DNA of 64,000 bases. Origin: Polytrichum commune (taxonomy: Eukaryota > Streptophyta > Polytrichopsida > Polytrichales > Polytrichaceae). Where the stretch lies: NCBI GenBank assembly GCA_950295325.1, contig OX485806.1, positions 39,556,001 to 39,620,000 on the forward strand, in the 5' to 3' direction. Position 1 is the stretch's first letter, and the number at the start of each line of letters is the position of its first letter. This document shows positions 5,376-47,647 of the stretch, piece by piece. The position numbers were made by a program, and so were the translations under genes. The notes beneath the pieces were generated by a model that was not told the DNA's origin, ran no database searches, and was given only the letters and a program-made list of their open reading frames with translations.

Positions 5376-7415
5376 TACCCAGTTTATTTTGCGTACGAGG
5401 ATGAAAACCTGCAGAGCATTCTGAAGGAGGTGGCAGCGAATGATGCAACAGGGAGGCCTGTGACAGCCACAACTGGAGGGTATGTGGAGGGACCCTGCTC
5501 AAATTGAATATTTTTGCTTTCCAAAATTCTCATTCTTCAAGGTTCCCTTCCTCTCTACAAAAAAGCTTAGGCTTATGATGAGCTTTATAGATATGATTTA
5601 TGAGAGCTAGAATTGGTATGTAATGTATCACATTTTGGATATTTTGCAGGTACAAGCTGGTCATACCTGTTGCCGATGCCAAGAAGCTAACAGCACCAAC
5701 TTTGACAAATATCCAAGTAGGTCCTGGTCACATTTTATTTCTAACTTGCTTGATGAAAACCATGGATGCTGCTATTAAGTGAGTGACTTGTGGCTAGTTA
5801 ACATGTCTTTATTGTTGTAAAGGTCCACTTCATGAGGGTCTACTCTAAAAGTTTGAGTTTTAAATCGTTTTCTACTCTAAATGAGTGGAAGCATAAATTC
5901 TATAGATTTTGATGGACTGAACCTTTTAGCTGTCTTAATTTGTAATAGTGGATGTTACTAATGGTTTGGTGTGATTTTTTGTACACCATATAATTGCTTT
6001 TTCTATTTCTCTCAGCAGTCAATTTGCATTGAGTGTTGGAAATAAAGTGAGCTAGCTGTTATATTGTGTTCATTGAACATTGTGGGAGTGAACATCCATG
6101 GTGGTATGGTGGTGCTATTAAATATGATGGGTTGAAGGGCTGGAGTTGTTCAATTAATGCTGGTCTGAAGCACATAAGAGTCTCTAGAGTTTTACACAGT
6201 AAGGTCTACTATTATTCTGTTCGTTGCAAAAAATGTTGAGAAGCTTCCTGGATATGCAGGGGTGGCTGCTTGGGTTGCGAGCTGAGGGTGACGATTCCAT
6301 TCTCCCAACTATTGCTATTGTGGCATCTTATGACACCTTTGGAGCAGATCCTGTAAGTTGCAATAACTCACTGCACTGGAAATCATGTACGGACTCCAAG
6401 GCAGCAACTGCTAGCAGGTGTAGAGCCAATGTTTGTACAAGGTTGCATCTTTGAATGTTCTTGTAGAGCTGAAGAGTGTCAAATGAGCAGGTTGACTGCT
6501 TTCTCACTTGTGTTTGTGCTCCAAGCAAAGTAGTAGGGAAGGTTTTATAGTGATTATTGCCGAGTGCAGGCCCTCTCTGTTGGAAGCGATAGTAATGGAA
6601 GTGGAGTTGCTGCCTTACTGGAACTAGCCCGTTTGTTTTCACGGCTATATGCCAACCCAAAGACACGAGGTCGGTACAACTTGCTGTTTGGCTTGACATC
6701 TGGGGGACCTTACAACTACATTGGTTCCAACAAAGTGAGTCTTCCTTCACATTTTGCACTATTGGTCTAGCAGTTACTGTGGCATTCCACACATATGCTG
6801 CAATTGTTTTCTATAGTGCGCTTTGAACTTTGTGATCCACTAGTTTTCTATATCAGTGAATGGAAGGCCTTAAGACTTGACTCAGTTTGTGGTGGAGCTA
6901 AGACTTTGTGGACCATAGTAGCTTCTTATGTAGAGTCTGACAGTGTTTTGGAGTGATGTGCAGTGGGTACGGGACTTTTGATCAGCGAGTTACAGAGACC
7001 ATGGAGTATGCATTGTGCTTGAGCACTCTGGGTTCATCGAGTGATAAGCTGTGGTTGCATGTTTCTAAGCCTCCTGAAAATGTTCTCATCAAAGAGATTT
7101 TTAACATACACTCTTGCTCTTTATTCCAATCCACATATTTTTGCACCGCTTATGTTGCAATAGCTAGAAATGTTGAAGTGGCAGTAGGTTTACAGACCAA
7201 TTTTGGGTATGTTGCAGAGTGAGGAGTGTCAGTAATGAGGGATTGGTCATGCTCATGTGCATTTTTAAACAGTTTATTAAGTTAGTAGTAGTAATGTTTA
7301 CCATAGAAGTTATTCATTTCTTCTTCCTGCTGCTGCTTTCTATTCAAGATATTGTATAGTAATACAACAGGTGTGATATGTGGACAATGTTTTGCAGGAG
7401 ATAGAGAATGGCTCG
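5376..7415 (+). pseudogene. NCLN: Nicalin (nicastrin-like ER membrane protein), 5' part of a broken copy
   Basis: Nicalin is an ER membrane protein of the nicalin-TMEM147-NOMO (BOS) complex. Exons are 5376-5479 (YPVYFAYEDENLQSILKEVA), 5650-5716 (YKLVIPVADAKKL), 6260-6352 (GWLLGLRAEGDDSILPTIAI then VASYDTFGADP), 6570-6734 (ALSVGSDSNGSGVAALLELA) and 6964 to about 7109 (DKLWLHVSKPPENVLIKEIF). The fifth exon has one extra T in the run at 6976-6980 that shifts the frame after WVRDF, and it lacks a clear donor. Upstream exons for the signal peptide are not in the window. The next exon is split by the 17-kb transposon starting at 7416 and resumes at 24549; no exons for the C-terminal half and membrane anchor were found. 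It is either a dead copy or a host gene disrupted by insertion. Confidence 0.85.
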
Positions 7416-7417
7416 GG
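7405..7417 (+). repeat. 13-bp direct repeat flanking the 17-kb element (left copy)
   Basis: AGAATGGCTCGGG occurs here and again at 24549-24561, immediately outside the two inverted termini. The right copy continues into nicalin coding sequence. It is read as the target-site duplication. Mutator-like elements usually make 8-11 bp, so one or two of the 13 bases may belong to the element end. Confidence 0.8.
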
Positions 7418-7500
7418 GAAAGTTAGTATGCGAGCGGAGAGCGGAGAGCGGAAAGCGGAGAGCGAAGACCGAAGAGCGGAGAACTCAATTTGAGACATGA
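7416..7500 (+). repeat. Left terminal inverted repeat of the MULE
   Basis: GTATGCGAGCGGAGAGCGG begins at 7427 and is followed by further GAGCGG/AAGCGG hexamers to about 7480. It pairs with the complement of 24455-24548. The hexamer repetition makes exact alignment ambiguous. Confidence 0.7.
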
Positions 7501-7789
7501 AATGAGAGAGAAATTGCACCTATAACCGCGGGATTGAGGGAAAAATGTTGAACTATTTTTAGAAACTTTGGAGAGTTATGGACTCTATTACCGTGGAAAT
7601 AAAGTAACATTTCCCTATTCATAAAGTTAATAGATTTTTGAAACATAGAAATATTAAAATAAAATACAAAATTAGGGCTTACATCACTATGATGTCACAA
7701 TTATAATTACCAAAATGGTGTACTATATTTTATATTACGGTAAATTAAATAATATTTACTATTTGAACGTGACATGAAGGAGGTTGGCG

Positions 7790-8245
7790 AAAAAAATTCT
7801 CCACATACAGTCCACCCTCTATTACTGTTACACCTATAAGTGTTAACCATTTCCAAACGTTCACTTTATTCTACTCCCTACATATTGCACACTATAAATG
7901 TTAAACCTGTTAATTGTTAACAAAACGGTGTTCCCTTCTTTGTAAATTTGACTCTATAAATGTTAACGAGTGAAATACATTCATAATTCACCCATGATTT
8001 GTAAACTTGATATTGAATAAAGTTTTGATTGGGTTTGCAATTTTGTGTATGATATTCTCTCACAATTACTCTTCACAATTGCTTATAGTTAGGACATGTT
8101 AAGATTTGCATATTGTTCAAAGAAGTAATTTTATAATTGTTAACTGTTAACACCTTTATACATGTAAAGTTCGATCCACTCCCGAGGGTTAACATTTATA
8201 GAGGGTGAACATTTGAGGGTGAACATTATAGATGGTGAACAAAAA
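7790..8245. repeat. Inverted-repeat (MITE-like) segment with GTTAAC motifs
   Basis: CTCTATAAATGTTAAC at 7952-7967 is matched exactly in inverse orientation by GTTAACATTTATAGAG at 8188-8203. Looser inverted similarity extends to the edges (CCACCCTCTATTACTGTTAC against GGTGAACATTATAGATGGTG). No coding potential is seen. It lies in the non-coding left arm of the MULE, downstream of the methyltransferase-like gene. Confidence 0.5.
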
Positions 8246-8584
8246 TGAAGAATGCAATGCGGGTAGTATGAATTGGAGTGTGTTGGGTGGTGTGCAACAA
8301 GTATTATTGAATACTTATGATTCAAGGAAACAAGGAGGAGGTGTGTGAGGCAACAACTTTTTATTGGAGTGGGTGGATGCTACATTGTTTTGTGACTAGC
8401 GGTTAAGATTGTGAGAAGATGGTGGACTAAATTCTCTTTGGAGTATGACGACCACCAAGTGAAGCGTGATTTGAGAACAACGAAAAGATGCATTCAATGA
8501 GATAATTGGAATATTGAAATCCACACAACACTTTATAAATCCAAATACCGATAAATCAAACCAACAAATCAATCAAACCCAAAA

Positions 8585-11500
8585 TCAATCAACCATGAGG
8601 TCGTCACTACTAGATTCCCTACTTCCAAAGATACTACCCTCATGGCCGCCCTCATCTGAAGTGGAATCTAAGCTATGGCACTCATTATCCACCTCCGCAG
8701 AATGCTCGAAGAAGTCTAAGGCACGGGGGTCATAACGTGGAGACGGGGAACTAGCTTCGGTAGGAGAAGGTTGTGCCGCTAGTACCATCGCCATATCATG
8801 GGCATAGATAGGCAATGTGAATCCCATGGTGGGAGTACCCAACACATCCGCTCCAACGCCAAGTCTGAAAAAAAACACGATAAATGTAAGAAAGAGGATG
8901 GAAAGTGTAAAAGCTGAATGGACAAAGAAAATAAGCGAAGAAGGTCATCATACTCACTTACTGCGAGGGCTCTGGCCTCGATCGCTTCAAGGCCGGCGGC
9001 CTCTTCTGCGTGCCTTGTGAAGCCTGCGTGGAAGCAACAACAATGGATGGAGCCTTCACCGTAGGCTGAACACTCTTAAGTGGCTTAAGGACACGGTTGA
9101 AGGTGTCCTCGTCCTCCTCAAGAGCAACGATATGGCGCCCAAGCTGCCTGCATGCATGGATAGAAGTCCCTGTTGCGGAGGAAAGGTTAGCAAAGGAAAA
9201 AAAAACAAACTTAGAAATTGAAAACTAGGATATGTTGGCAAGTGAATTAGGACATACCAACGCCTGCATTAATGTCCACCACAACCTGTCCAATGTCCGT
9301 AGTGGCCATGATCAAGGAGGACATGAAAGAAATATCTTTCTCCCGGGGACCACGCCAAGCTTTGGAGCCGTCCATGAGAGGAGTTGCGGTATAATTCATA
9401 ATCGCATCATCCATGTCGAGCTCAATGCCAAGAGCCTTGAGCTCATTGGCATCGCGAAGGCGAAATGACGAGTGCCGGGGCCGCTTATCAAGGTCAGATC
9501 CAATTGTTTTGGTGGCACGAACAAGTAGTACAACTTGGAAGAGGTTGGTGGTCTTGTCCTTATGCTTAGCTGAATGTAGGCGAAGACGGTTGACTCCCAG
9601 CCACTCCTTGAAGATCGTGAACCCAAAAGCAGCGAAGTGGTCTTCAATGCTCTCCCTGAAATCACCATTGTCATCTGGATGAAAGAGGAGGAGAGCTCCA
9701 TCGTCATGCAGGATCTCGTCCGCGAAATCGAAGAGTTCACCAATAAAATCGGAATCCAATGCATTCCAGGAAGGCACACTATAGGAAGGATCGGAGACAT
9801 TGGGTACCGGCAGGTTCTCCGGGAGGTCGGCAATGACAAGATCAGCCATGCCCACATCTGACCTCGCAACGCCTAGAGCTCTCCGCGGATAGGAGGGTGG
9901 AAGAGAAAGAATGAAGTTGGAAACATCCTGAAAATGACGACGTTGATGAAGAATAGAGGCATTCAAGATGCATTCTGAAACAACTGGAGGACGCCTAGCA
10001 GATGAAAGAACGGGCGGAGGAGGCGGCCTGGAAAGAGTAGGAACTTGACTAAGAGTTGTAGTGGATGCAACTGCCGCCTCAGGTGAAGCAGGGGGATCAT
10101 CCTCCACAGTCTTCAGCTTCCTCGCGCGCTTCTTTAGTGAAGACTCGTCTTGAGTCGCACGCTTCCTCCTCTTGGACTTCTGAGTGTTGGGCTCATCGAG
10201 AGTCGCAACAACCTCATCCGCCTCCGGAAGCTGACTCTCTAGAAGAACAACCTCATCGCTTTGAGAAGGTGGCTCTCCACCGGAGAGCCGAATCTTCAAG
10301 GCCGCCTCCTCATCCGGCTGCCACGTCCTCTTACACTCCAAGTACCAGCAACACTCGCGGAGATGCGGGAGGGAGAAGTTGCGCTTTTGAGCCGGGGAAA
10401 AAATGAAGGTGGGCGAAGAGGAATCCGACCATGCATCCAGAAATGGAGGAAGCTTCTTCAAAGCCTTCTTCTTGAAAAGCTCGTGCTTGATGTACCTTCA
10501 CAACCAAGGAGTGAGGCCAATAAGCAACTTAGAAAACAACTAGTTTGATATAAATGAGAACAAAAGATGGCCCAACTAACTTACCGGAAAATTAAGCGCT
10601 TGACAATGTTGTCAGCGCCTTTGACATCCTTCCACCACGTCCCCTTTCCATAGATATCTGACCCTGAGAAGTGACCAATGAACGCCTTATCCCAAAGGCA
10701 AATTCGCCACTTCTCCAAGTAATCCGGCAACGAATCAACTTCCACGTCTCCATCAAGCCCACCCAATGCACTTAGTATATCCGGTAACTCCTTGACCGCA
10801 GCATCCTCTAGCTGTGAAGGAATTCAAGGCGAACATGAGAATTGGCACAAAATGAAGAATTGAAAGGTAAGCAAAGAAAATAGGATAGACGTACCCCTGC
10901 CCAGAACGCTGCTTTATTGAGCCAAGATTTCAAGTTGTCCTCGCTTGCAGGACTTTTGGGAAACCGGATAGCTTCACGATTGAAACTTCCACTGTTCCAC
11001 CACTTAAGCCAACGGGCTTTATACTCTGGCTCGACAGCGGCAGTGGCAATGAGTTGCAATTTCTCCAATGTCATCTCAATCTTTTGAGAATGGTGGGCGC
11101 TATAATGCCTAGTAATCTGAAACAAATGCAATCAAAATAGAAGGCCAAGTAAATTTTAGAATGTTTACTGAAAAAATGCTGCAAAGAATGCAAGCAATAC
11201 GAAAAGCATAATTCCAAATTGGATGACAAGGAAATTACCTCATCTAGGAACTGTTTTCCAAGGGCAGGGTTTGCGATCGACTGTTGTTTGTTGAACTTGT
11301 GCCCAAGTTCCTCAGACGTCTTCTTAATTACAGCGTCCAATACATCACTCAACCCCTTCCCTGACTGCTCATCTAGAGGCACTTCCTCCTTGAAGATTTG
11401 GGCCGCCTCATCTACCGCATCGGCTATCTCTTGCTGGACATGTATTCTAAATTGTTAGACCATGACTCAAAGTAATGAATGCGAAGTAGGAGCTTGATGA

Positions 11501-12516
11501 ATTTGGAGTGACTTACATTGAAAATGAAGGACACCATAAGATCCTGGGTCAGCGGGTACCAAGGGCTCTTGGGGCCTCTACTCTTGCACGCTTGGAATTG
11601 CTCCTCGGTCAACAATGGCTGGTAGTAGCTAAGATCATACGAACCGTATTTTTGGATGCGGTGTAGAGTGTGAACAAGGCTAGTCTTAACGTGCGCAGTC
11701 TGGTTAGCCCTGTTGCGGTTGAGATAAATGGCATTAGATGAAAATAAAAAAATGAAGGAAAAAATGTTCAAAAAAATAACAAACTTACTTGTTTATGTCG
11801 TGCATTGCATTAAGGACGTCTCCACGCCCACCCGTTGTGTCGAGGATGACACATTCTGGGCAACCATGTTTCTCATACCAAAGTGCATCGTCCTTGTGAT
11901 CTGTTTCAATACACTCCTTCCACGCTAGCAAGCGGTGGTTACCATCATACACAAAGAACATGCATCCACTAAGGCTCATCAAGTCCTTATCCGAGCGCAA
12001 AAAAAACTCAAACTTATCATTTTCTGCATTCCATAGCTCTCCCCATTCACGCTTGTCTTTGGCAGAAATGAATCGATTCTCTCCACTCTCATTTGCAGTA
12101 GACACATAAAAAGTGGCAGACCCAGCTCGGTATCCAAATTGAAATGCTGCCATGAGCTTTGTAACGTCGCTGCGGAGAGTTGGCCGAACCAATGGCATGT
12201 GAATCAACCTGCAGAGAGGGATTCTCATAGAGGACTTTTCGACCGGTTGTATCCTCATGCCCTCAACAACTGAAAAACTATCTTTTTTTAAATTGTGGCG
12301 AATCCGATACTCCATTACACGAACACCCACATCCGATTCTGGTGGTGAGCCGGTGAGTGTCATCCCGGGTGTCTGCGGTTCGCCACTACCAGGTGTAAGC
12401 CCAGTAGGTTCAGCACATGACAACGGAGACCCTTGCTCCATATGCTCCTCTACACTAAGGGATGACCCAGCACCAATGCGAACCCCAACATCCAATGACT
12501 CTCCATCCGCAACCAT
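8585..12516 (-). CDS. ParB-like / permuted DNA-methyltransferase-like protein, 8 exons
   Basis: Exons are 12516-11789, 11709-11517, 11433-11239, 11116-10895, 10811-10585, 10495-9258, 9169-8962 and 8864-8585. All junctions are GT-AG, phases agree and the frame is open for 1,096 aa. The ATG at 12516 is the first in frame. Residues 185-200 (CMFFVYDGNHRLLAWK) carry the DG.HR signature of the ParB/sulfiredoxin fold. A basic stretch near 628-650 (KSKRRKR, KKRARK) looks like a nuclear localisation signal. Residues 740-845 (ADLVIADLPE ... DDGALLLFHPDD) resemble the catalytic half of N6-adenine/N4-cytosine methyltransferases, with DLPE where DPPY is usual. At about 927-955, VVDINAGVGTSIHACRQLGR and HIVALEED form the SAM-binding motif I. 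Catalytic motif before motif I is the beta-class, permuted order. The loss of the aromatic residue may mean altered or lost catalysis. It lies in the MULE, divergent from the transposase across a satellite array. Confidence 0.75.
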
Positions 12517-13303
12517 CTCAACAATCTCCTGAGAATCAATTACTTACCAACATAAGAACCAATAGAATGAACAATGCCACCCAATATTTACATGATAATA
12601 CAACCAAACTCACCTCAGCCTCATTGGGAGCTTTCGGCCATCCACAAAATCCACCTACCTCTAACCTTAGCCTTCTTGTGAGCTTTCAGCTACCCCCAAA
12701 ATCCACCCGAAATCAGATTATATGCTAGCAAATATGCCATGTTTCTTTCAAATATAATCTGACCTCTAAATCCCCCCCTAGCTATCAATTCGAACCACAC
12801 TAAGAGCATCTAAACATGACTAAACCCTCACTAACGTGCATTAACCCCCAACTAATACCTGTCCAAATGAGCATCTGGCCTACCAAAAAGTCCAATAAAA
12901 ATAAAAAATTCGGGTGCACATTTCTGCCCCAAGGGGACTGTCGGATCCGACAATGCCCCTAGCTCTCACCTCTAACCTCACAAGGACCATCCAGCCACCC
13001 TAAACCTCCACCCCCAGCTCTCACCCTAAACCTCCCGAAAATCAAAAGCGAGGTGCCCATATCTGTCAGTAGGGGTCTGTCGGATCCGACAGTGCCCCTA
13101 GCTCTCACCTCTAACCTCACAAGGACCATCCAGCCACCCTAAACCTCCACCCCCCAGCTCTCACCCTAATCATCCCGAAAATAAAAAGCGAGGTGCCCAT
13201 ATCTGCCAATAGGAGTAGGGGTCTGTCGGATCCGACAGTGCCCCTAACGCTCACCTCTAACCTTACTAAGGACGATGAAAAAGAAAGCAGAAGAAACGCA
13301 CCT

Positions 13304-13408
13304 TCACCTTCACCTTCACCTTCTCCTTCTCCTTCTCCTTCTCCTTCTCCTTCTCCTTCTCCTTCTCCTTCTCCTTCTCCTTCTCCTTCTCCTTCTCCTT
13401 CGTCTTTT
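13304..13408. repeat. CCTTCT/CCTTCA hexamer microsatellite
   Basis: Three CCTTCA units and then about 14 CCTTCT units lie between the third satellite unit and the LTR fragment. The Ser-Pro and Leu-rich frames here are repeat artefacts. Confidence 0.9.
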
Positions 13409-13509
13409 TCTTTCTTTAAGGATGCCTAGTGGGTTTGAAGCAAGGGTTATGGGTTCGCCGCTCACATACTTCGCCGCTCCGCTCACACAGACTTCGCAGC
13501 CTAAAGACG

Positions 13510-14339
13510 CCGCTCACCCTCGGAGACTAGGAGGCACAAGACTAAGGCCATGAGCTATGCGTAGCTCATGGCGTGGTGATTCTAGAAAGCTGAAGAACAC
13601 CTCAATCGGAGGTGTGAGCTAGGAGTTATGGCCATTTGAGTGGGGCGCTGTCGCGGGACAGCGCCCTGGTTGAGCATTGCCTGGGAGTCATTCCCGGGAC
13701 TGCCAAGGTTCAAACAGGCATAACGTCGTCAATACTTGCATGAATGGGTCAAGTGAGGGGTCCATCGGCATCTACGTGAAGCGTAGATGAAGATGGAGTG
13801 GTTGGTTGTTGGAATCAAAAATCATACAAGAAAGTTATGGTGGTCTGAAGCTGTTGGGGGCTTCTAGGCCCAGCAGCTAAAGGAAAATGTCTACTTGGCC
13901 CCAACTCTTGGTAGAGAGACAAGAGGTTGGTTGACGGTGGGGTAGGGGCCCCTCGTAGAGTCCTAGAGGCTTATATGGCTGAGGTGGTGTGGCCTCACCC
14001 ACCCGAGGCCGAACGGCACGGCCTCATTGGGCTTTGGCCCATTGTGAGGCCATAGTTGCATAGTATGGTTCGGGTTGTTGTAGTGTTGCTCCGGCAACGC
14101 GATGATCAACATGGGATTGGACTTCCATCGATGGAAGTCCACATTTGGGAATGGGTTACCGATTAAGGGGTGAGTCCCGAAAGCAAAGTAGGAAGGTTGG
14201 TTCCCCTCCTATGAACTAACCGGTCCGGGTAGGAGGAGCTAACCATTAGCTTGGCGGTATGCGAAGGGTTAGTACTCGTAACCTATGCTAGAAATGCGAA
14301 TTGGCAAGATTTTTAAGGGGACTAGCAAGGGTTGCGACA
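13510..14339 (+). mobile_element. 5'-truncated copy of the solo-LTR family
   Basis: About 820 bp are closely similar to 26200-27013, including the same hairpins, the TATATGG motif and the 3' end GGGTTGCGACA. The first 145 bp of the full-length copy, with its TGTCGC start, are missing. The 3' end joins satellite-like sequence directly, so the fragment interrupts the array inside the MULE. Confidence 0.8.
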
Positions 14340-17300
14340 ATCTAGCCACCCTAGAAAGCCACCAAAAATCAGATAATAACCTTGCATTTCTGCCCCCAGC
14401 TCTCACCTCTAACCTCTCGAAAATAAAAAAATGAGGTGCCCATATCTGCCCCTAGGGGTCTATCGGATCCGACAGTGCCCTTAGCTCTAACTTCTAACCT
14501 CACTAAGGACCATCCAGCCACACTAGGCTGCACCAAAAATCAGATAATAACCTTACATTTCTGCCCCAACTCTCACCTTGAACCTCCCGAAAATCAAAAG
14601 CGATGTGTCCTTATCTGCCCCTAGGGGTCTGTCGGATCCGACAGTGCCCCTAGCTCTAACTTCTAACCTCACTAAGGACCATCCAACCACACTAGGTTGC
14701 CACCAAAAATCAGAGAATAACCTCACATTTCTGCCCCCAGCTTTCACCTTGAACCTCCCGAAAATCAAAAGCGAGGTGTCCATATCTGCCCCTAGGGGTC
14801 TGTCGGATCCGACAGTGCCCTTAGCTCTAACTTCTAACCTCACTAAGGACCATCCAACCACACTAGGTTGCCACCAAAAATCAGAGAATAACCTCACATT
14901 TCTGCCCCCATCTTTCACCTTGAACCTCCCGAAAATCAAAAGCGAGGTGTCCATATCAGTCCCTAGGGGTCTGTCGGATCCGACAGTGCCCCTAGCTCTA
15001 ACTTCTAACCTCACTAAGGACCATCCAGCCACACTAGGCTGCCACCAAAAATCAGATAATAACCTTACATTTCTGCCCCAACTCTCACCTTGAACCTCCC
15101 GAAAATCAAAAGCGATGTGCCCTTATCTGCCCCTAGGGGTCTGTCGGATCCGACAGTGCCCCTAGCTCTAACTTCTAACCTCACTAAGGACCATCCAGCC
15201 ACACTAGGCTGCCACCAAAAATCAGATAATAACCTTACATTTATGCCCCAGCTCTCACCTTGACCCTCTTGAAAATCAAAACCGAGGTGCTCATATCAGT
15301 CCCTAGAGGTCTGTCGGATCCGACAGTGCCCTTAGCTCTAACTTCTAACCTCACTAAGGACCATCCAGCCACACTAGGCTGCCACCAAAAATCAGATAAT
15401 AACCTTACATTTATGCCCCAGCTCTCACCTTGACCCTCACGAAAATCAAAACCGAGGTGCTCATATCAGTCCCTAGAGGTCTATCGGATCCGACAGTGCC
15501 CTTAGCTCTAACTTCTAACCTCACTAAGGACCATCCAGCCACACTAGGCTGCCACCAAAAATCAGATAATAACCTTACATTTATGCCCCAGCTCTCACCT
15601 TGACCCTCTTGAAAATCAAAACCGAGGTGCTCATATCAGTCCCTAGAGGTCTGTCGGATCCGACAGTGCCCCTAGCTCTAACTTCTAACCTCACTAAGGA
15701 CCATCCAGCCACACTAGGCTGCCACCAAAAATCAGATAATAACCTTACATTTATGCCCCAGCTCTCACCTTGACCCTCTTGAAAATCAAAACCGAGGTGC
15801 TCATATCAGTCCCTAGAGGTCTGTCGGATCCGACAGTGCCCTTAGCTCTAACTTCTAACCTCACTAAGGACCATCCAGCCACACTAGGCTGCCACCAAAA
15901 ATCAGATAATAACCTTACATTTATGCCCCAGCTCTCACCTTGACCCTCACGAAAATCAAAACCGAGGTGCTCATATCAGTCCCTAGAGGTCTGTCGGATC
16001 CGACAGTGCCCCTAACTCTAACTTCTAACCTCACTAAGGACCATCCAGCCACACTAGGCTGCACCAAAAATCAGATAATAACCTTACATTTATGCCCCAG
16101 CTTTCACCTTGAACCTCCCGAAAATCAAAAGCGAGGTGTCCATATCTGCCCCTAGGGGTCTGTCGGATCCGACAGTGCCCCTAGCTCTAACTTCTAACCT
16201 CACTAAGGACCATCCAGCCACACTAGGCTGCACCAAAAATCAGATAATAACCTTACATTTCTGCCCCAACTCTCACCTTGAACCTCCCGAAAATCAAAAG
16301 CGATGTGTCCTTATCTGCCCCTAGGGGTCTGTCGGATCCGACAGTGCCCCTAGCTCTAACTTCTAACCTCACTAAGGACCATCCAACCACACTAGGTTGC
16401 CACCAAAAATCAGAGAATAACCTCACATTTCTGCCCCCAGCTTTCACCTTGAACCTCCCGAAAATCAAAAGCGAGGTGTCCATATCTGCCCCTAGGGGTC
16501 TGTCGGATCCGACAGTGCCCTTAGCTCTAACTTCTAACCTCACTAAGGACCATCCAACCACACTAGGTTGCCACCAAAAATCAGAGAATAACCTCACATT
16601 TCTGCCCCCAGCTTTCACCTTGAACCTCCCGAAAATCAAAAGCGAGGTGTCCATATCTGCCCCTAGGGGTCTGTCGGATCCGACAGTGCCCCTAGCTCTA
16701 ACTTCTAACCTCACTAAGGACCATCCAGCCACACTAGGCTGCACCAAAAATCAGATAATAACCTTACATTTCTGCCCCAACTCTCACCTTGAACCTCCCG
16801 AAAATCAAAAGCGATGTGTCCTTATCTGCCCCTAGGGGTCTGTCGGATCCGACAGTGCCCCTAGCTCTAACTTCTAACCTCACTAAGGACCATCCAACCA
16901 CACTAGGTTGCCACCAAAAATCAGAGAATAACCTCACATTTCTGCCCCCAGCTTTCACCTTGAACCTCCCGAAAATCAAAAGCGAGGTGTCCATATCTGC
17001 CCCTAGGGGTCTGTCGGATCCGACAGTGCCCTTAGCTCTAACTTCTAACCTCACTAAGGACCATCCAACCACACTAGGTTGCCACCAAAAATCAGAGAAT
17101 AACCTCACATTTCTGCCCCCATCTTTCACCTTGAACCTCCCGAAAATCAAAAGCGAGGTGTCCATATCAGTCCCTAGGGGTCTGTCGGATCCGACAGTGC
17201 CCCTAGCTCTAACTTCTAACCTCACTAAGGACCATCCAGCCACACTAGGCTGCACCAAAAATCAGATAATAACCTTACATTTCTGCCCCAACTCTCATCT

Positions 17301-18010
17301 TGAACCTCCTGAAAATCAAAAGCGAGGTGCCCATATCTGCCCCTAGGGGTCTGTCGGATCCGACAATGCCCCTAGTTCTAACTTCTAACTTCACTAAGGA
17401 CTATCCAACCACCCTAGGAAGCCATCAAAAATCAGATAATAACCTCGCATTTCTGCCCCTAGCTCTCACCTCTAACCTCCTGAAAATCAAAAGCGAGGTG
17501 CCCATATCTGCCCCTAGGGGTCTGTCAGATCCAACAATGCCCTAGCTCTAACTTCTAACCTCACTAAAGACTATCCAGCCACACTAGGAAACCACCAAAA
17601 ATCAGATAATAACCTTACATTTCTGCCCCCAGCTCTCACCTTGAACCTCCCGAAAATCAAAAGCGAGGTGTCCATATCTGCCCCTAGGGGTCTGTCGGAT
17701 CCGACAGTGCCCCTAGCTCAAACTTCTAACTTCACTAAGGACCATCCAACCACCCTAGAAAGCCATCAAAAATCAGATAATAACCTCGCATTTCTGCCCC
17801 TAGCTCTCACCTCTAACCTCCCGAAAATAAAAAGCGAGGTGCGCATATCTGCCCCTAGGGGTCTGTCGGATCCGACAGTGCCCTTAGCTCTAACTTCTAA
17901 CCTCACTAAGGACCATCCACCACCCTAGGAAGCCACCAAAAATCAGATAATAACCTTACATTTCTGCCCCAGCTCTCACCTCTAACCTCACTAAGGATGC
18001 TGAAAAAGAA

Positions 18011-18085
18011 AGCTGAAGAATGAAAGAAACGAAACGAAACGAACGAACGAAGGAACCGAACCGAACCGCACCGCACCGCCCGCTT
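18011..18085. repeat. Graded short tandem repeats at satellite edge
   Basis: The motif drifts from GAAAC through GAAC to CCGAA and CCGCA. The preceding GATGCTGAAAAAGAAAGCTGAAGAA resembles 13267-13296 at the other array boundary, so both array segments end on the same sequence. Confidence 0.7.
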
Positions 18086-20293
18086 CAACTTCCACTTCGA
18101 ACCTCACTATGACCATCCAGCCACCGAAATTCATATGATCACCTCTCATCTCTGGCCCCTAAGCTATCACATCGAACCACACTAAGAGCATCCAGCCACC
18201 CTACAAAGCCACCAAAATTTCTGCCGCCCCAGCTCTCACCTTGAACCTTACTAAGGATCATCCAGCTCTCACCTCATACCTCACTAAGGAGCCCTTTGCC
18301 AACCCTAAACCAGCCATCTAAAGTCATTTGCGAGGTTCAAATTTCATCCCCCAGGGCTCTCACCTCAAACCTCTCCACGGGGCGACCACTGCCCTTCCCT
18401 CGAGTCACTCCCCCGCTCCAAATCGTGGCTGCAACCCTGCAAGCCTAGTTCAGAGGTCCGTTGTAATGCGGGGAACGATGGTAGGCTACTGCCGCGGCAG
18501 TCTTGTTCCCTTCCACTTGTGACGGTCTCATTGTGATGTCGAGTGCTTCAACGGGCCCACACTTGTTGCCTTCTCTAGCTCACGAATACAACCCCTAATT
18601 TCTAGTGCATATATGTTAACATCGACTTGAGGTTCATACCTGGGTCTCGCAAATTCTCGATAGATCATGTGATATCTCCACTTGTCTGGTCGTACCCACT
18701 CCAGCTTCCTTGCTAGCAATGTCTTCACCACTGTGAGTCTGGCTTCTCCGTATACGAGACCTTGACCGTGTGCGGTCTGGGGAGAATTCCAATGCCTTGA
18801 CTGTGCTGTTTAAGCTATCATATCGTTGTTTCGGTTGTCTCATCCTAGATGCCCTTAATTGCTTCCTGCTTGAGAAAAATGCCTTCCTCCTCCTCTTCGC
18901 CTTTGGTTTCACTAACTCTATCGGCGAGGACCCTGTCATGTAACTGAACCGGCTTCACAAATTCTACACTTCCCTCCTATGTGAACATCACTCTATCAAT
19001 GTATGTGTCTCGCCTGTATTACATCCACACTAATATTCCATCCCATAATCTTTTTCACATAATGTCGATATGTTTTGATTACAGTCAAGTTGCTATAAAC
19101 ATATAAGGAATCATAAAAATGAACATTAAAAGAATGGACACGGATGTCTAATAACATTTATAGAAATAATTCAGAAGTAATCTAAAAATGAAGAATATCA
19201 TGTTTTATAAAAATAAAAATGATAGTACAAATGATAATACATAATTCAAACTAAACTAATTAGAAGAAATATTCTGTATAGCCATACCTTGACGATACTC
19301 TTCCAACTAAACTAACTTATTCTAGCTTCTCCTTAAAGGTTAATGCTCTTCCCTTGCCCATTTCAATCTTCCACTCCAAAAGAAACACTTTACTTTAGGG
19401 TGTCCCTTATATCCACTAAATGGTTCACGTGGTCTCTGGTGTATTTATAAGTACGTCACTCGGCATCCAGCCTCATGTTTGTTATTAATATATCTAATTT
19501 GGATTGGCATATGATCATGACTAACTTAAGTAACTGCTCCACTGCATTTTCAATTTTAATTCAAATTGACCCTTACCTTACACACCTTTCTGGCAAGATG
19601 TTCTACGTTTGGGAGGGAAACTTTGTTAATTCCATTTGTCTCGTATCTTTCGTGTTGTGCCTTCTTCCTTCCCATTCTACTTGTCTTCAATGCCTTAGTG
19701 CTACTGAAATACAACTTCCCTCTCTTTTTCCTTCTCTTGATATGATTTTGCATGTCAGGTATCACCCTTCCAGAGCATGTCTACTCCAACATTCCCAAAA
19801 TCCTCCCTTGAACCGAACACATCTTACGGCACTCGAGAGTCCATAACTTATGATTCTAAAACAAAGGAGTTGAGTATCACGAGATCTTATACAAGTGTTC
19901 GCACGAGGGACAGTCCTATATTTAATGCCCAATTGGGTCTTTGTCATTCGTTCTATTCCTGTCTTGAAACGTCAAGTCTATCTCTAGACCTAGTTATGAT
20001 ACATGCTTTAAGTCGGCGCCAAATAATCAAATTTAATTGCTTGTCGAGTAGAATGTCTACCATGACTTGCACGCTGTACTTATATATATCGTGACAGCGT
20101 TACCCATCACTTTTAGACCCAAGGGCGGCTGTTTCCATATTGAAAATATTAGTGAAGCTTTCGTTCAGAGTTCATCCATCATGTGGATCATGTCGTTGTC
20201 GTTGGCAGCCCATTTGTAATATATAGATGGCCCACAATGTTTAGAATCCTCTTTCATATTTCCATCTTGCCGCAAGGGCTCATTCCCCTTATC
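18086..20293 (+). promoter_or_regulatory. Upstream region of the MULE transposase gene
   Basis: About 2.2 kb without a convincing gene lie between the satellite and the transposase start. Degenerate satellite pieces persist to about 18300. A TATATATA box at 20081-20088 lies about 210 bp before the chosen ATG and is a plausible core promoter. I see no coding signal in 18500-20080. Confidence 0.4.
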
Positions 20294-23200
20294 ATGGCTC
20301 ATATTCCTGCTATTGGAGACTTGGGGTTGGCTGTCCTCTATGCAGATGGTGTGAGAGTCCCAGTTACCTTTCGGATGCAAGAGGACGGTCTAGCTTACGT
20401 GACGTCCCAACGTCTGAGTATTCGGTTCGGCTTCAGAGAGGATACTATTATTGTTGACGAGGATATTTTTGATGTTGTCACGTCAGAACTTACATACACC
20501 CTTGGTCGGGTATCGCAGCGAGATGAGAACAATAACTTGTTTTGGAGTCTTCCTCCAGGTAGTTACCGAGTGTATGGCCTCACTGATTCTCAGATGGCTG
20601 CGTCTACTGAGATCCTCACTCCTCGTAATTCCTCTACGTGCACCATTCAAACTCCTCTGCCACGTGATGTGAAGGTCAAGCTCGAGCCCGGTCTCGACAC
20701 GCCAATTGTAGAAAACGTTAGAGTTCAGTCTGTAATTACACTTTCTTCAGATGAAGAGGGCAGTCCCACCAAGCCCCCGCCTCAGGTTATAGTTAGTGGG
20801 AATGCTCCTAAAGTATATCCTTTGTCCCAAGAGACTGTTAGCATATTTCCATTGCTAAAACAACTTGCAGGAAGGCCGGGAAAAAAAAATATTCTAAAAA
20901 AATTAGATTACTCAGTGATTAGACACGAGAGAGTAGAGTACCTTCCTGCTGAGTTCGATGGTGTCGTCATATTTGAGTTGCCACCCGCTAGTGACACGGC
21001 CGCACGGTCACAGGCCAAGTCAATGCAGGGAATGGACAAGCGTTACGACGGCCATGTGTGGACGAAGACCATCACCACCAACATCACAAACGACTTTGGT
21101 TTGTCCTTCCGTTCTTCCGCTTGCGTTGGACACCTGCGTTGCAACAACAAGGAGTGCGAATATTTGATCCGCCGACCTCGTATTTTCGAAGTCAACGAGA
21201 CAGAGTTTGAAGGTTGTACCCTCCAAGCCTTTGTAGTGGATCAAGCGCCCCCACTTGACTCTACGTTTGTTTGCAAGGTATGTAAAGAACCCCCAACATG
21301 TATTGCTACATGTGGAGCGAAAATTTATTATGTTGCTGGCAAAAACAACCACACAAGAGCGTGCATCCACATTGGAACTCACGATCACCCTGTCAAGGTG
21401 GGCGACTACAGAGACACTAAGGCTGAGATCAGTGGCCTAATTGAAGAACAGATCGAGAAGACTCCTCAGGCTACCAAGAGTGCACTTGTGTTGGAGGCTA
21501 GCAAAGTTCTAATTGGCAACTATCTTCTTCAATCCGATGACGCGCCACCAAAGAAGCTCACTCTGGAGGAACTTGTTCCTGTATTCGACCGGTGCAAGGA
21601 CATGGCTTCCCCGAACATCCGCAACAAGGTCATGAGCTTCCGATACCTCAAAAGGTATGGTGTCATGGACTCTATCACCAAACTCCGTGGAATCAGTTTA
21701 TGGGCCTTTGTTCAGGAGAACAAATTCCCTGGTCAAGGGGCTGATCTTGACAAGGTTTTTGTCTTCAAGATGTCGGAAGTCGGGCCTGGTAGTGGGGTAG
21801 ACTTGGTGAAGCGTATGCAGCCCGGCGAAGATCTGGAGAATGCTTGGATGATGTTCGACCATGTGAAACGGGTTAGACAATGGACCACAATGGCATGCCA
21901 CGTGTATGACTCCACGTATTGTCGTGTCATGACCATTGCAAGTTGTGACATGCAATCGGAGGACTGTGATGCCCAGATCGTTTTTTGGAAGAATCTCAAT
22001 GCTGTGATGGAGAGGAATGGTGTTGTCGATACCAACTTCAAGGGTTTCATGGCCGACAGCGCCCAGGCCAATTGGAATGCAGTTCGGGTCATATATGGCA
22101 ACGGGAAGAAGGAGGACCGCATGGATGACCGGGAGAGAACCTGTCAGTTTCATTGGACCCAATCTATGGTTAAGTATACCGAGAAATACATTCCCGAAGA
22201 ACTCTGGGAGCAGCACAAGAAGATGTGCCACCAATATAGGACCGCGAGGACCATGGACGAAGCGGAAAACCTGTACCACGGGCTACGTGCATGGTGGGTA
22301 TCCGCCGGGGCAGTGACAGAGAAGGCACTTGACAAACTGGAGCTCTGGCTTGCATTCTGGCATTTCCGTTATCGCCAATGGGGAGGCTTCATGACCGGGG
22401 TATGTTGTCCCAAAACTTGTTGTTTTTTTTTTCTTTCACTGTAATTTTCACAACTCTTCTCCAATTTATAATTGCTTCCACTATGTGCACGCAGAAATTT
22501 ACAGAAGGAGAACTAGCAGAAATGCCTTCATGTAATCTCGCCGAATCAATACACAACAAGTGGCTTCAAGCGTCTGGAAATAGCGGCGGCGACCTCTATG
22601 TTGCTACCGTGGACGACTTCGTTCGAGGCTTCCTACAGGTTGTCAATTACTACCAGTTCCTGAAAGGTGATGTCGGCGGTACAGGCCCTACAAAGAAAGA
22701 GCTCAAGCTAAGGTTGGCAGAGCGCAGGGCGAAGCAAACGGGTAATCCTTTAGTCCTCGAAGACCCCATGATGGACATGCCTGGAGCAGAAGAGTTCTGT
22801 ACCCGGGTGCCTTGCATGGCTGGGGAAGAGGTATTCGGGTCCACGAAACGGAAAGCAGATCTACCTCTTGGAGCAGAAGAGGAGTCGCACAGACCTGATA
22901 AGGTCAACTTCTCACATCCCCGTGGCTCTGGTAGGGCTGTCCGGACTCGTTCCATTAACATGCCCATAATTATTGAAGAGGATGATTCCAATGTCCCGGA
23001 AGTTGCACCCATGGCGCCATATGCCGACAATGTCGTCCCGTCCCACATCCCCGAGGGACGGATCAGCCACGTCACTGCCGTCGAGGAGACTAGGGTGAAC
23101 GTGAAGGAGTGGCACATCGCTCGGTTGCCAAAGACTTCTGCCAAATGTTGTTGGGCACAGAGAGCTGTCACCAAAAAGAAGTGTACTGAGAGAATCGTAA

Positions 23201-23979
23201 GGGGTGCAAAATCAACCCCTGCCCCTACGTACACCGGTCTATGGCACAGCACTAGGAGGAATGTGAAAGAGACCACAGAGTTTTTCTTCTGCTCAGATGA
23301 TATCCATAGGTGCGTTAAGGGTAGCAGGCGCAAATGGGTTGTTCAATACTCTGCGGAACAGGAGAGACCAAGCATTCCGGATGTTTGGCCAGTGAAACTT
23401 GGCACTAACCTCAAGCAATGTGAGATCCTGGCCCTCGAGGCGGCCGGATTCCAACTGCCGCAGAAAGTGCCAGTCTCACCCAGAAGGCTCTTTTCCACTG
23501 CACCGTCTCCGGCAAATCTAGACTCCGTGCCGGTGCCAGCAGATGCGGACAGGTATCCTGGGAAGAGAGAAGGGAAGCTCGTTAAGCGCACCGCAACCCG
23601 TCCAAACCCTCAGCAGCGGCTATCCATGGGCTCTTCGGACTCCCTCAAAGCTCAACTCCGCTCGGTCACAATGATTCCTCACCCTGGCCATGGCTGCATC
23701 ATTGCGCTAGACTCGATGATGCCACCCGATGTGACACAATACCATATCACCATCAGTTCCCTCCCGGGTTGCACATGCCCTGCGTTCAAGAAGACAATGA
23801 CCAACTTTCGAGGGCGGAATCAATTCTCGTATTGCAAGCATGTTTACTATATTCTTTTAAAGGTCTGCCATCGCAATCCTGATGTAGACCTTTTCATCCA
23901 CGCGCCAACCTTCAGCTTCAACGAGGTCAAAGTAATTCTCGAGAGTGGAATTTTAACTCACCCTTTAGATCGGACCTAG
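20294..23979 (+). CDS. MULE transposase with SWIM zinc finger
   Basis: Exons are 20294-22399 and 22495-23979, joined FMTG|KFTEG over a 95-bp GT-AG intron, giving about 1,196 aa. The frame is open further upstream; the ATG at 20294 (MAHIPAIGDLG) was chosen for its ATGG context. An N-terminal region of about 250 residues is followed by a Cys-containing segment (CVGHLRCNNKECEYLI). The DDE-type core then follows, with CDMQSEDCDAQIVFWKNLN, FMADSAQANWNAVRVIYG, TCQFHWTQS and, after the intron, CNLAESIHNKWLQASGN. Near the C-terminus, CTCPAFKKTM to YCKHVYYIL is a CxCx(n)CxH SWIM finger typical of MudrA-like transposases. The enzyme would cut at the element's inverted termini. The frame is intact, so it is recently active or under constraint. 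Confidence 0.85.
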
Positions 23980-24454
23980 GATTTACTCTAGGAGTGTCCC
24001 TTTCTCCCATCAACATGATAGATCGATGAAGTAGTGCCTATTCATCCATGTTTCTAATCGAGTACGACATAGACTAAGTGATATAAGATTTTCATTGAAT
24101 AATTTAAGATTGTCAGCTCAATAATATAATAAATACAATCGCATGGATTATTTTTATTCAACTCAAAATGTTGGATTACAATACTCAACTGTATCATGTG
24201 TCTCTATACATCTTGGGATCATCCTTGGTTTTCATCATCTACTTATTTATTATATCACAATTTTACTATCATTTTTGCACTTCACGGTTCCCAAACTAAA
24301 TCAGACCATTTCAAATTCAAGGCATTTATTTTATTTAGTGCCTACACATTCCACGGAAATAGGTCCCAAATTTTTTCTATTTCTGGCATAATCTGGAATA
24401 TTCTAAGTATATTCTTGTACTATTTTTAGGAAATTCTAAATTTAATATAGAATA

Positions 24455-24548
24455 TTTCCTATTTTTACACCATTTCTGCTCTCCGCTCTCCAAATCGCCA
24501 CTCTCTGCTCTCTGCTCTCTGCTCACCGCTCACATACAAGTCTCGTCC
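24455..24548 (-). repeat. Right terminal inverted repeat of the MULE
   Basis: On the plus strand this reads CTCTCCGCTCTCC, later CTCACCGCTCACATAC, then AAGTCTCGTCC, and abuts the right direct repeat. Its complement matches the left end in the core GTATGyGAGCGGwGAGCrG. Confidence 0.7.
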
Positions 24549-24617
24549 AGAATGGCTCGGGACTTGCAGTTGTCTGTGGTACTCAAGCATAAGAAGATCA
24601 ATATCTCCGATTCACGG
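24549..24617 (+). pseudogene. NCLN: Nicalin exon, right-hand half after the MULE insertion
   Basis: The sequence reads MARDLQLSVVLKHKKINISD then SR before a GTATGA donor. LKHKKINIS is a conserved plant nicalin block that should follow the KPPEN..IKEIF exon at 6964-7109. The first 13 bases repeat 7405-7417, so the MULE entered this exon. The following acceptor near 24711 does not lead into the expected nicalin W-E-H segment, so the gene is lost beyond this point. Confidence 0.8.
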
Positions 24618-25850: not shown

Positions 25851-26054
25851 CAATGCTTTCTCATTGCTAACTACACTTAGAAAATTGTCGGCAGTTATGT
25901 CAGTGATGCATACATGTATATACCACCAGAAGTGGGCGCCATCATCTCCAAAGAGAAGGTTGCAGTAGGACATCGTTTGCGAAATCGGCCATTCGTTACA
26001 TGACACTGATATCTGCAGAGGAAATATGCAGTATTTTTTGCTTGACTGCCCTGT

Positions 26055-27013
26055 TGTCGCGCACCTCTCCATGAGGAGTGCCCGAAACACCATGGGCACA
26101 AGGGGGACCCCAGAGTGACACCCGGGACTTGTGGCGCCGTTGGTGAGAGGGCCCAAGTGATCCTAGTGTGGGCGAGGGCCCCAGGTGTTGGAAACGCCTC
26201 CCACCCACGGAGACTAGGAGGCTCAAGGGTAAGGCCATGAGCTATGCGTAGCTCATGGTGTGATGATTCTAGAATGCTCAAGAACACCTCAATCGGAGGT
26301 GTGAGCTAGGAGTTATGGCTATTTGAGTGGGGCGCTGTCCCGGGACAGCGCCCTGGTACAGCAGTGCCTGGGAGTGATTCCCGGGACTGCCAAGGTTCAA
26401 ACAGGCATAATTTCCCCAAGACTTGCCCGAATCGGGCAAGTGAGGAGTCCATCGGCATCTACGTGAAGCGTAGATGAAGATGGAGTTGTTGGTTGTTATG
26501 ATCGGACGTCATACAAGGAAGTTATGATGGTCTGAAGCTGCTGGGGGGGTTCTAGGAAAATGTCCACTTGGCCCCAACTCTTGGTAGAGAGACAAGAGGT
26601 TGGTTGACGGTGGGGTAGGGGCCCCGCGTAGAGTCCTAGAGGCTTATATGGGTGAGGTGGTGTGGCCTCACCCACCCGAGGCCGAATGGCACGGCCTCCA
26701 TGGGTGTTGGCCCAATGTGAGGCCATAGTTACCTAGTATGGTTCGGGTTGTTGTAGTGTTGCTCCGGCAATGCGATGATCAACATAGGATTGGACTTCCA
26801 TGGATGGAAGTCCACATTTGGGATTTGGTTACGGATTAAGGGGTGAGTCCCGAAAGCAAAGTAGGAGGGTTGGTTCCCTCCTATGAACTATGAGGTCCGG
26901 GGTAGGAGGAGCTAACCATTAGCATGGCGGAATGCGAATGGTTAGCGCTCGTAACCTTTGCTAAAATTGAAAATTGGCAAGATTGTCAAGGGGGCTTAGC
27001 AAGGGTTGCGACA
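26055..27013 (+). mobile_element. Solo LTR-like element, 959 bp
   Basis: It starts TGTCGCGCACC and ends GGTTGCGACA, giving TG...CA ends within a 6-bp inverted TGTCGC/GCGACA. It is flanked by CCTGT (26050-26054) and CCTGC (27014-27018), a 4-of-5 target duplication. A TATATGG motif lies near 26645. No internal retrotransposon region, primer site or second LTR is present, so it is read as a solo LTR. Several perfect hairpins are embedded. A truncated relative lies at 13510-14339. Confidence 0.65.
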
Positions 27014-45321: not shown

Positions 45322-47647
45322 ATGGCGGCCCTTCGACATGCAGCTATCCTCATGATGGTGATCAGTGCGTTCACCGGTAAGGACTCGAGTTTCAAATTTT
45401 TATGATAGATCACAGCATCTCAATTGAAGTAGGTTATAGCTTGTATTCATGATGCATTCATCTCGTGTGCATTGCAGTTCAGGTCGATGTCGATCGCATG
45501 TAGTTGAATTTGACAGCAGGATCATTGGTTCTTTGTGCAGGTCCTGCAATTGCAGGTGGTGGTAGTGGCGGTGGCGGAGGAGGAGGTTGGGGCGGAGGTG
45601 GAGGTGGAGGTGGAGGTGGAGGTGGAGGTTGGGGCGGAGGTGGTGGACATGGTGGCGGCGGCGGCGATGGTGGAGGAGGAGGCTGGGGCGGATCAGGTGG
45701 CTGTCCCACTGGCTACGATAAATGTCAAGGAAACTCGAATTCCTGCGAGACCTGCACCAAGAACGATGTCAACCACTGCGGCCGGTGTGGAAACAAGTGT
45801 CCAACCTACTCCTGCAGTACTCCCACATGCACCTGGGGCACCTGCGGTTCCATCTGCTCTCCAGGATTCAAGGACTGCGATTCCAACTCACAGAATGGTT
45901 GTGAAACAAATGTTGACAACGATGCCATGAACTGCGGCAGCTGTGGCACAAAGTGCCCCACGTACCCTTACAGCACCACTAGCTGCAGCAACGGCAAGTG
46001 CACCCCAATGTGCAACCCGGGAATGAAGGATTGCAATAGCAACTGGAACGATGGTTGTGAAACTAACACAGGCAAGGACACGAACAACTGCGGGGGGTGT
46101 GGCATCAAGTGCCCCACCTACCCTCACAGCACCACCAGCTGCAACAATGGCAAGTGCACCCCAGTGTGCAACGCAGGTTGGATGAATTGCAATGGTGACT
46201 GGACAGATGGTTGCGAGACCAATGTAGGAACGGATGCGAACAACTGCGGCGGATGCAACTCCAAGTGCCTCACGTACCCTTACAGCACCACTAGCTGCAG
46301 CAACGGCAAGTGCACCCCAATGTGCAACCCGGGAATGAAGGATTGCAATGCCAACTGGAACGATGGTTGTGAAACTAACACAGGCAAGGACACGAACAAC
46401 TGCGGGGGGTGTGGCATCAAGTGCCCCACCTACCCTCACAGCACCACCAGCTGCAACAATGGCAAGTGCACCCCAGTGTGCAACGCAGGTTGGATGAATT
46501 GCAATGGTGACTGGACAGATGGTTGCGAGACCAATGTAGGAACGGATGCGAACAACTGCGGCGGATGCAACTCCAAGTGCCTCACGTACCCTTACAGCAC
46601 CACCAGCTGCAGCAACGGCAAGTGCACCCCAATGTGCAACTCGGGAATGAAGGATTGCAATGCCAACTGGAATGATGGCTGCGAAACTGACACTGGCAAG
46701 GATACGAACAACTGCGGGGGGTGTGGCATCAAGTGCCCCACCTACCCTCACAGCACCACCAGCTGCAACAATGGTAAATGCACCCCAGTGTGCAACGCAG
46801 GTTGGATGAATTGCAATGGTGACTGGACAGATGGTTGCGAGACCAATGTAGGAACGGATGCGAACAACTGTGGCGGATGCAAATCCAAGTGCCCAACCTA
46901 TCCTTACAGCACTACCACTTGCAGCAACGGCAAGTGCACACCAGTGTGCAACTCGGGAATGAAGGATTGCAATAGCAAGTGGCTTGATGGGTGTGAGACA
47001 GACACAAGCAAGGACACGAACAACTGCGGCAGCTGCGGCATGGTGTGCCCTACCTATCCTCACAGCACCACCACTTGCAGCAACGGTAAATGCACCCCAG
47101 TGTGCGATGCAGGCTGGAAGAACTGCAACGGTGACTGGAAGGACGGCTGTGAGACTAACGTAGGAACAGACTGCAACAACTGTGGCAACTGCGGTTCAAC
47201 TTGCCCAATCTACCCTCACAGCACCAGAAGCTGCAGCAACGGCAAGTGCACCCCAATGTGCAACTCGGGCTGGAAGGATTGCAATAGCAACTGGAATGAT
47301 GGCTGTGAGGTAAATGTCAACAGTGATGTGAACAACTGTGGTGGATGTGGCAAGTCATGCCCCTGCGCCGACGTCAACGGCCTACCCTCTTGCAGGTCTG
47401 TGTAACCTCCCAGCCTTGACCTTCATGTTAGATTCTGTGCTTTCGTCTGCATTAACATATCCACATAACATGTAGATACTAACTATGAAAATTTCGTACG
47501 TCAACAATCTGTATATGCATGGCTACATAAAGTGTACACTAATACTCTTGCTCATGCAATTCGATCTGCAGCAACGGGAGTTGCGGAGTGCAATGCAAGA
47601 GCGGATACAAGTACGACACTTACCAGAGGCAGTGTATCAAGGCATAG
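45322..47647 (+). CDS. Secreted cysteine-rich repeat protein B, with Gly-rich spacer
   Basis: Exons 45322-45376, 45541-47395 and 47572-47647 give 661 aa. The signal peptide is MAALRHAAILMMVISAFTG. The spacer is a much longer Gly/Trp tract than in A, about 45 residues (runs of G broken by W, H and D). Eleven NCG-started repeats follow; three adjacent pairs are almost identical at the DNA level with a 312-bp period (matching blocks at 45960, 46272 and 46584), a recent two-unit expansion. Exon 3 (SNGSCGVQCKSGYKYDTYQR) matches gene A, and all intron positions and phases are conserved. A cell-wall or extracellular-matrix location is inferred from the signal peptide, Gly-rich tract and cysteines. 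Confidence 0.85.

Follow-up and report, generated by a model that had tools for sequence, protein, structure and literature searches.

Previous studies on the VANDAL transposons of Arabidopsis, in the excerpts considered here, suggested that the targets of their accessory protein, VANC, are non-coding and often tandem repeats, which differ between related elements along with the protein (PMC5735166, PMC10398659). An excerpt on a Sola1 element described a gene for a ParB-like and methyltransferase protein placed opposite the transposase, and similar genes were cited there in green and red algae (PMC12477816). We describe herein a transposon of Polytrichum commune that lies in a stretch of 64,000 nucleotides (C4:39556001-39620000; this whole stretch is called the window) of a 407.8-Mb assembly of 64 contigs, which was the genome searched. 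The transposon carries a transposase gene, a divergent accessory gene coding for a ParB-like and amino-methyltransferase-like protein and, between the two, a satellite with a palindrome in nearly every unit. Across the genome, palindrome and class of the methyltransferase gene go together, and the pair varies relative to the transposase.

As far as the excerpts describe VANDAL, it resembles the present element in being of the MULE type, in having an accessory gene, and in that protein and target differ together. VANC is described there by its DUF1985 and DUF287 domains, with no methyltransferase domain mentioned, whereas the window protein has one. The VANC21 motif given there, YAGTATTAY, is not palindromic, whereas the window motif is, and VANC/VANDAL is the functional precedent, while the window element is known from its sequence alone. 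The Sola1 gene, by its excerpted description, is similar to the accessory gene in its position on the strand opposite the transposase, in its ParB-like part joined to an N4/N6 methyltransferase, and in its length (1,104 versus 1,096 amino acids); the host transposon is Sola1 there and MULE-like here, and no target array is named in the excerpt (PMC12477816). The beta-class methyltransferases CcrM (6pbd), M1.HpyAVI (5hfj, 5hek) and M.MboIIA (1g60) gave significant matches and share the order of a motif IV region followed by motif I. However, these enzymes have a DPPY motif, whereas the window protein lacks DPPY and has a large N-terminal extension and introns in its gene. Thus, ParB-methyltransferase genes in algal transposons have already been reported, and the new part is the gene-matched palindromes; no report of these was found in the literature searched, although one may exist.

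The repeats that hold the palindrome in the window are as follows.

12932-13257: tandem repeat of 139 bp, 2.3 units (TRF), with the palindrome at 3 places, one of them with a mismatch
14336-17989: satellite of 170 bp, 21.5 units (TRF), with the palindrome in nearly every unit
14629-14644: an example of the 16-bp palindrome, CTGTCGGATCCGACAG

Between positions 12900 and 18010, CTGTCGGATCCGACAG occurs with at most four mismatches at 24 places, 19 of them exact, four with one mismatch and one with three, which bears out the preliminary description of a GATC palindrome in nearly every satellite unit. Exact copies are found at 374 places genome-wide. Two further palindromes were followed: a TTAA form, found with a trailing NNC at 248 places, and a 17-bp GACC form, found at 61. 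The reversed controls of all three gave 0.

Methyltransferase genes were sorted by identity into class G (at least 85% to the window exon), class T93 (at least 93% to the gene L081) and class D (42-46% to the window exon in alignments longer than 700 bp). The T-type set comprises the 78 matches of 71% or more, lower and unlisted matches being left out. The palindromes form at least 33 GATC, at least 27 TTAA and 7 GACC clusters, where GATC and TTAA clusters are those among the matches listed and the GACC listing is complete (61 of 61); longer palindrome variants were listed as 38 of 38, 59 of 59 and the best 100 of 110. Within 20 kb, the nearest methyltransferase was of class G for 31 of the 33 listed GATC clusters (none for 2), of class T93 for 24 of the 27 listed TTAA clusters (another class for 1, a single site; none for 2), and of class D for 6 of the 7 GACC clusters (none for 1). 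Viewed from 148 methyltransferase loci, a listed cluster lay within 15 kb at 30/63 G, 23/28 T93, 6/8 D, 0/35 lower-identity T-type (T<93) and 1/14 other loci, the last being a single TTAA site. Among these listed matches, class agreed with palindrome at 59 of the 59 loci of G, T93 and D that had a cluster (G with CTGTCGGATCCGACAG at 30, T93 with GGTGCCGTTAACGGCACC at 23 and D with GGTCGGACCCGACCACC at 6), and there were zero cross-class cases. On contig C1 up to 37.68 Mb, where the GATC listing is complete, six G loci match six clusters, one of which lies 38 kb from its locus.

The large accessory exon gave 111 genome matches, merged to 85 loci, and a search with the window's transposase (transposase A) gave 93 scored places out of 2,112 candidates. 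The accessory gene lies upstream, divergent and 8-26 kb away, at all 19 full-length transposase places of at least 98% identity and at one partial place of 99%. At 96% or more, 20 of 21 transposase-A copies pair with a G-class gene, and 19 of those 20 have a listed GATC cluster. Of the 57 copies at 86-95%, 8 pair with G, 17 with T93, 16 with T<93 and 3 with another class. A copy on contig C2 (C2:17117089; L081 with L024), of the 95% transposase group and initially taken to lack the gene, in fact contains a methyltransferase gene that has diverged, together with a 234-bp satellite that is unrelated and bears another palindrome, GGTGCCGTTAACGGCACC. For a second family of transposases, B, 62 of 150 matches are at 73% or more, and 16 of these 62 copies lie with G genes (at least 10 of them with a listed GATC cluster) and 6 with a class at 47-49%. 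Since genes of class G are found with transposases A and B, and transposase A accompanies genes of classes G, T93, T<93 and D, the palindrome follows the gene, not the transposase. This bears on the idea that the palindrome serves transposition, as a binding site or topological anchor for the transposase together with the accessory protein. The array does lie between both divergent genes in the elements read, and the palindrome is conserved. However, the palindromes of G and T93 differ at 86-100% transposase-A identity, and the same palindrome is found across two transposase families, and we regard this explanation as highly improbable.

For comparison of the satellites, the palindrome was masked, and letter-shuffled sequences served as controls. 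In the family-B element L082, a 95% G-class gene adjoins a 171-bp satellite that carries the window palindrome beside a different transposase; the window's 170-bp unit and this 171-bp unit show no detectable similarity when masked (z 0.4), and on that ground the same palindrome appears to stand in different satellites. An element on contig C3 (L083 with L087; transposase 84%, methyltransferase 46%) has two satellites, with units of 322 and 107 bp; GGTGGTCGGACCCGACCACC stands in each, and the comparison of the two gave z 3.0, under the shuffle maximum. The 234-bp TTAA satellite gave z of at most 2.0 against the others. The 171-bp unit of family B and the 322-bp unit of class D have a common 50-bp block (z 18), yet different palindromes. 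We take these comparisons to indicate that one palindrome persists in different satellites, and that one common block goes with different palindromes. Change can also be graded. L090 comprises 451 bases of the array of an element whose T-type gene is 87% identical, and 2 of 2 units read there carry GGTGCCTGTAAYGGCACC, which has the arms of the TTAA class with an altered centre (two units of a single element). A CG-NNNN-CG centre is common to the three class palindromes, and this fourth word is without it. It is possible that nothing but hitch-hiking lies behind these patterns, the palindromic satellites amplifying themselves and the class matching reflecting linked descent. The members of a class are indeed related, gene spacing varies among near-identical copies, and in the window array, the palindrome is scarcely more conserved than the remaining positions. 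On the other hand, 16 identical bp stand in two otherwise unalignable satellites, the same motif stands in two satellites of one class-D element, and no cross-class case occurred in the 59 loci, so that hitch-hiking alone seems quite unlikely.

A block at window positions 13430-14300 is common to the element classes, at 93% from A to B and about 76% to D, where it is part of the 322-bp satellite. Its stretches were located at 13430-14300 and about 25900-26400 in the window, at 3038-3510 in L082 and at 130-2057 in L083. Beyond the element, around 26.3 kb, there is apparently a similar stretch, and the 24-bp palindrome there, GGGCGCTGTCCCGGGACAGCGCCC (26330), is also found in L082. The block is possibly a dispersed repeat.

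The limits of the transposon and its transposase gene were placed as follows.

7405-7414: left copy of the target-site duplication, AGAATGGCTC, 10 bp, exact in 11 of 11 copies read
7415-24548: complete transposon of 17,134 bp, with ends common to 10 other copies read
7415-7483, plus strand: left end, GAGCGG-type subterminal repeats
20294-22399 and 22495-23979, plus strand: transposase gene of two exons, 1,196 amino acids, with a SWIM-like C-terminus; the 93 scored genome places are those of this protein
24484-24548, minus strand: right end, inverted GAGCGG/GAGCAG-type repeats
24549-24558: right copy of the duplication AGAATGGCTC, 10 bp

The element starts with GGGGAAAGTTAGTATGCGAGCGG and finishes with CACATACAAGTCTCGTCC. 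Its inverted ends are imperfect, GAGCGG-type and subterminal, as the preliminary description had it, while the start moves from position 7416 to 7415. A 13-bp target repeat, also claimed there, had to be given up: the extra GGG is element start on the left and flank on the right. The window copy and ten others, 14.8-17.8 kb in length, were read at both ends, and because exact 10-bp duplications flank all 11, ends, accessory gene, array and transposase travel as one mobile unit, a claim of the preliminary description with which the pairing of 20 of 21 close transposase copies with the gene also agrees. The large accessory exon was compared in 30 copies, window included, and 15 of the others are within 0-4 changes of the window copy. 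In the ten most diverged of the 30 (L051-L060), the ratio of nonsynonymous to synonymous divergence (dN/dS) was 0.14-0.20 at dS 0.16-0.18 over about 414 codons, indicating purifying selection. These near-identical copies and low ratios indicate that the element moved recently and that selection kept its protein.

A MULE has target-site duplications of 8-11 bp, and some MULEs have no terminal inverted repeats, according to the excerpted source (PMC6446971); the 10-bp duplication falls inside that range. The exon junctions of the transposase were chosen by hand, and no Pfam family at E of 10 or less was found for the spliced protein. Among the window exons searched singly, the only Pfam result was SWIM (PF04434) on transposase exon 2, at E 0.12 and under the cut-off; CxxH and SWIM-like motifs were seen by eye. 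The label of a SWIM-finger MULE transposase thus relies on the SWIM-like C-terminus together with the inverted ends and the 10-bp repeat, and is weaker than first described. Two 64% transposase matches (C3:13620520 and C3:58494818) lie inside very long open frames of 2,390 and 2,527 amino acids.

The accessory gene and the parts of its protein are listed next.

8585-12516, minus strand: accessory gene of eight exons, 1,096 amino acids, with in-frame GT-AG splicing; aligned with L053+L082
12516-11789, 11709-11517, 11433-11239, 11116-10895, 10811-10585, 10495-9258, 9169-8962 and 8864-8585, minus strand: its exons
11789-12225, minus strand: ParB-like segment with a DGNHRLLAW motif, without Pfam, PDB or Foldseek confirmation
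9060-9903, minus strand: permuted N6/N4 amino-methyltransferase domain, limits approximate, with motif I C-terminal; it spans an intron
9817-9828, minus strand: motif IV position, DLPE instead of DPPY, aligned with DPPY of 5hfj/5hek in a segment below zero bits

The gene is open through all eight exons and seven GT-AG introns, as first described, with junctions chosen by hand and an additional upstream exon possible. PF01555 (N6_N4_Mtase) matches the isolated domain at E 1.2e-6 and 29.1 bits, above the curated cut-off of 26.7, and the whole spliced protein at E 2.2e-5 and 25 bits, slightly under it. The spliced protein also matches phrog_3008 (E 3e-7) and, in PDB, 5hfj (9.9e-5), 6pbd (1.8e-4) and 1g60 (0.0057). 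The NCBIfam model of CcrM was matched at E 4.2e-7; because its 29 bits are far under the cut-off of 830, the protein is by these scores a relative of CcrM and not CcrM itself. The DPPY region precedes motif I, which is in the C-terminal part, so that the permuted methyltransferase first proposed is retained, while the ParB label received no support from the libraries. The N-terminal part contains MFFVYDGNHRLLAW, and DGNHR is retained in 4 of 4 aligned sequences; we call this segment ParB-like from its motif, following the preliminary description; searches for ParB/Srx gave no match to it in Pfam, PDB or Foldseek. Foldseek returned nothing at E of 0.001 or less for AlphaFold2 (AF2) models of the ParB-like exon and the methyltransferase segment (mean predicted local distance difference test, pLDDT, about 44), although 6pbd, 8urk and 5hfj were among the first 28 rows for the latter. 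No relative was found in viral contigs with one query (A4), and one piece of L085, run against phages and against plasmids, gave chance matches only. In the genome, further methyltransferase families with ParB-like exons occur at about 45% and 32% identity (L085 and L086; many matches). The gene linked to transposase B (L053+L082; C5:48758615-48770871) has an intronic insertion carrying the GATC palindrome, and in this copy exon 2 is interrupted by a stop codon.

The consensus of the catalytic motif IV is [DNS]PP[YFW]. At the aligned window position it is replaced by DLPE (in that weak segment, below zero bits), and relatives have DIPE (L051 and L059), EYAD (L081), DYPD (L085) and QFPD (L086). 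The accessory protein is related to methyltransferases by sequence, and because DPPY is never found among these, normal catalysis is doubtful. These residues matter for the possibility that the protein is an active amino-methyltransferase, which would write N6-methyladenine or N4-methylcytosine (6mA/4mC) on the core of its own array and so keep the element active or block cytosine methylation by the host. The domain is a genuine N6_N4_Mtase with motif I retained, and the GATC and TTAA cores resemble short methylase sites. Moreover, a similar gene of Ectocarpus was proposed, in the excerpt at hand, to bind and modify the transposon that carries it (PMC12477816). However, the fourth residue of motif IV is D or E, never aromatic, in class G and three relatives, and the GACC core is not palindromic by itself. 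We therefore consider such an enzyme unlikely. The suggestion in the preliminary description that the protein binds or marks its own repeats thus fares unevenly: the gene does go with its palindrome, and marking by methylation is doubtful.

The class-by-class match suggests that the protein recognizes the DNA of its own element, binding by the element's own protein being the simplest cause of such a match. We consider it reasonably probable, on the whole of this analysis, that the element is an autonomous and recently active MULE-like transposon, and that its second gene codes for a sequence-specific self-recognition protein targeting the array palindrome, most likely in anti-silencing or activation. 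The protein would comprise a ParB-like segment and an amino-methyltransferase domain that is probably no normal catalyst, and its target would be the palindrome that recurs in the satellite separating the divergent genes. From that position, the bound protein could influence both promoters and would most likely keep them open in a VANC-like manner, through anti-silencing or activation. Anti-silencing is favored because of the analogy with VANC targets, which are likewise tandem repeats differing from one related element to the next. The chances appear about evenly balanced that this is a transposon family with exchangeable recognition modules, each a protein derived from ParB and methyltransferase with its own palindrome array, in which new specificities would arise as pairs (CG-NNNN-CG being common to three of the four words) and be swapped between transposase families, each lineage recognizing only itself.

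Several observations weigh against self-recognition of this kind. The preliminary description held that copies without gene or array would count against it, and in part they exist: no methyltransferase was found at 13 of the 57 transposase-A copies at 86-95%, nor at 40 of the 62 transposase-B copies, 2 of which lie beside GATC clusters. A listed cluster of the own palindrome is missing at 33/63 G, 5/28 T93 and 2/8 D loci, among the matches listed for GATC and TTAA and in the complete listing for GACC; some of the loci are fragments. A partial T93 locus (C1:37739693) has no TTAA cluster in a stretch where the TTAA listing is complete, and a palindrome was found in one element only of the 35 T<93 loci. 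Class members share ancestry, and the 59 loci represent fewer than 59 independent events; satellites A and B may have a common ancestor that escapes detection. In the window array, palindrome columns are conserved at 0.984 versus 0.942 for the rest, a difference so small that stronger conservation of the palindrome was dropped as evidence. Stops occur in 2 of 30 G exons and 5 of 26 full-length T93 frames. Lastly, the TTAA element that was read (L081 with L024) yielded no ParB-like exons, an observation at odds with recognition by a fixed pair of domains; its array abuts the methyltransferase exon, 11 of the 27 TTAA clusters begin 470-474 bp from the methyltransferase match, and many TTAA copies may be alike in lacking ParB-like exons and in having the array adjoin the exon. 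It may be that the core is recognized by the methyltransferase part, or that relatives of full length work in trans.

Elsewhere in the window, an AT-rich tandem repeat with a 48-bp unit similar to TATATATG occupies positions 1-921. Two related open reading frames with Cys-rich repeats (NCGGCGIKCPTYPHSTTSCSNGKCTPVCNAGWKNCNGDWKDGCET type, 156-bp unit) lie on the plus strand at 38173-40041 (622 amino acids) and 45504-47405 (633 amino acids); neither gave a Pfam match, and the 622-residue frame gave no PDB match. Rfam and the other open reading frames of the window provided no indication of lineage.

Three, perhaps four, protein classes that each have a palindrome of their own within a single genome mean that the target can be read from sequence. 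If binding and anti-silencing hold true, the logic of VANC would here be built on another protein, and the classes would represent natural proteins with matched DNA words, useful for studying the evolution of DNA recognition. If the modules are indeed exchangeable, these elements would parallel, among eukaryotic transposons, ParB-parS or the specificity of methylases, following the logic of VANC with a different protein.

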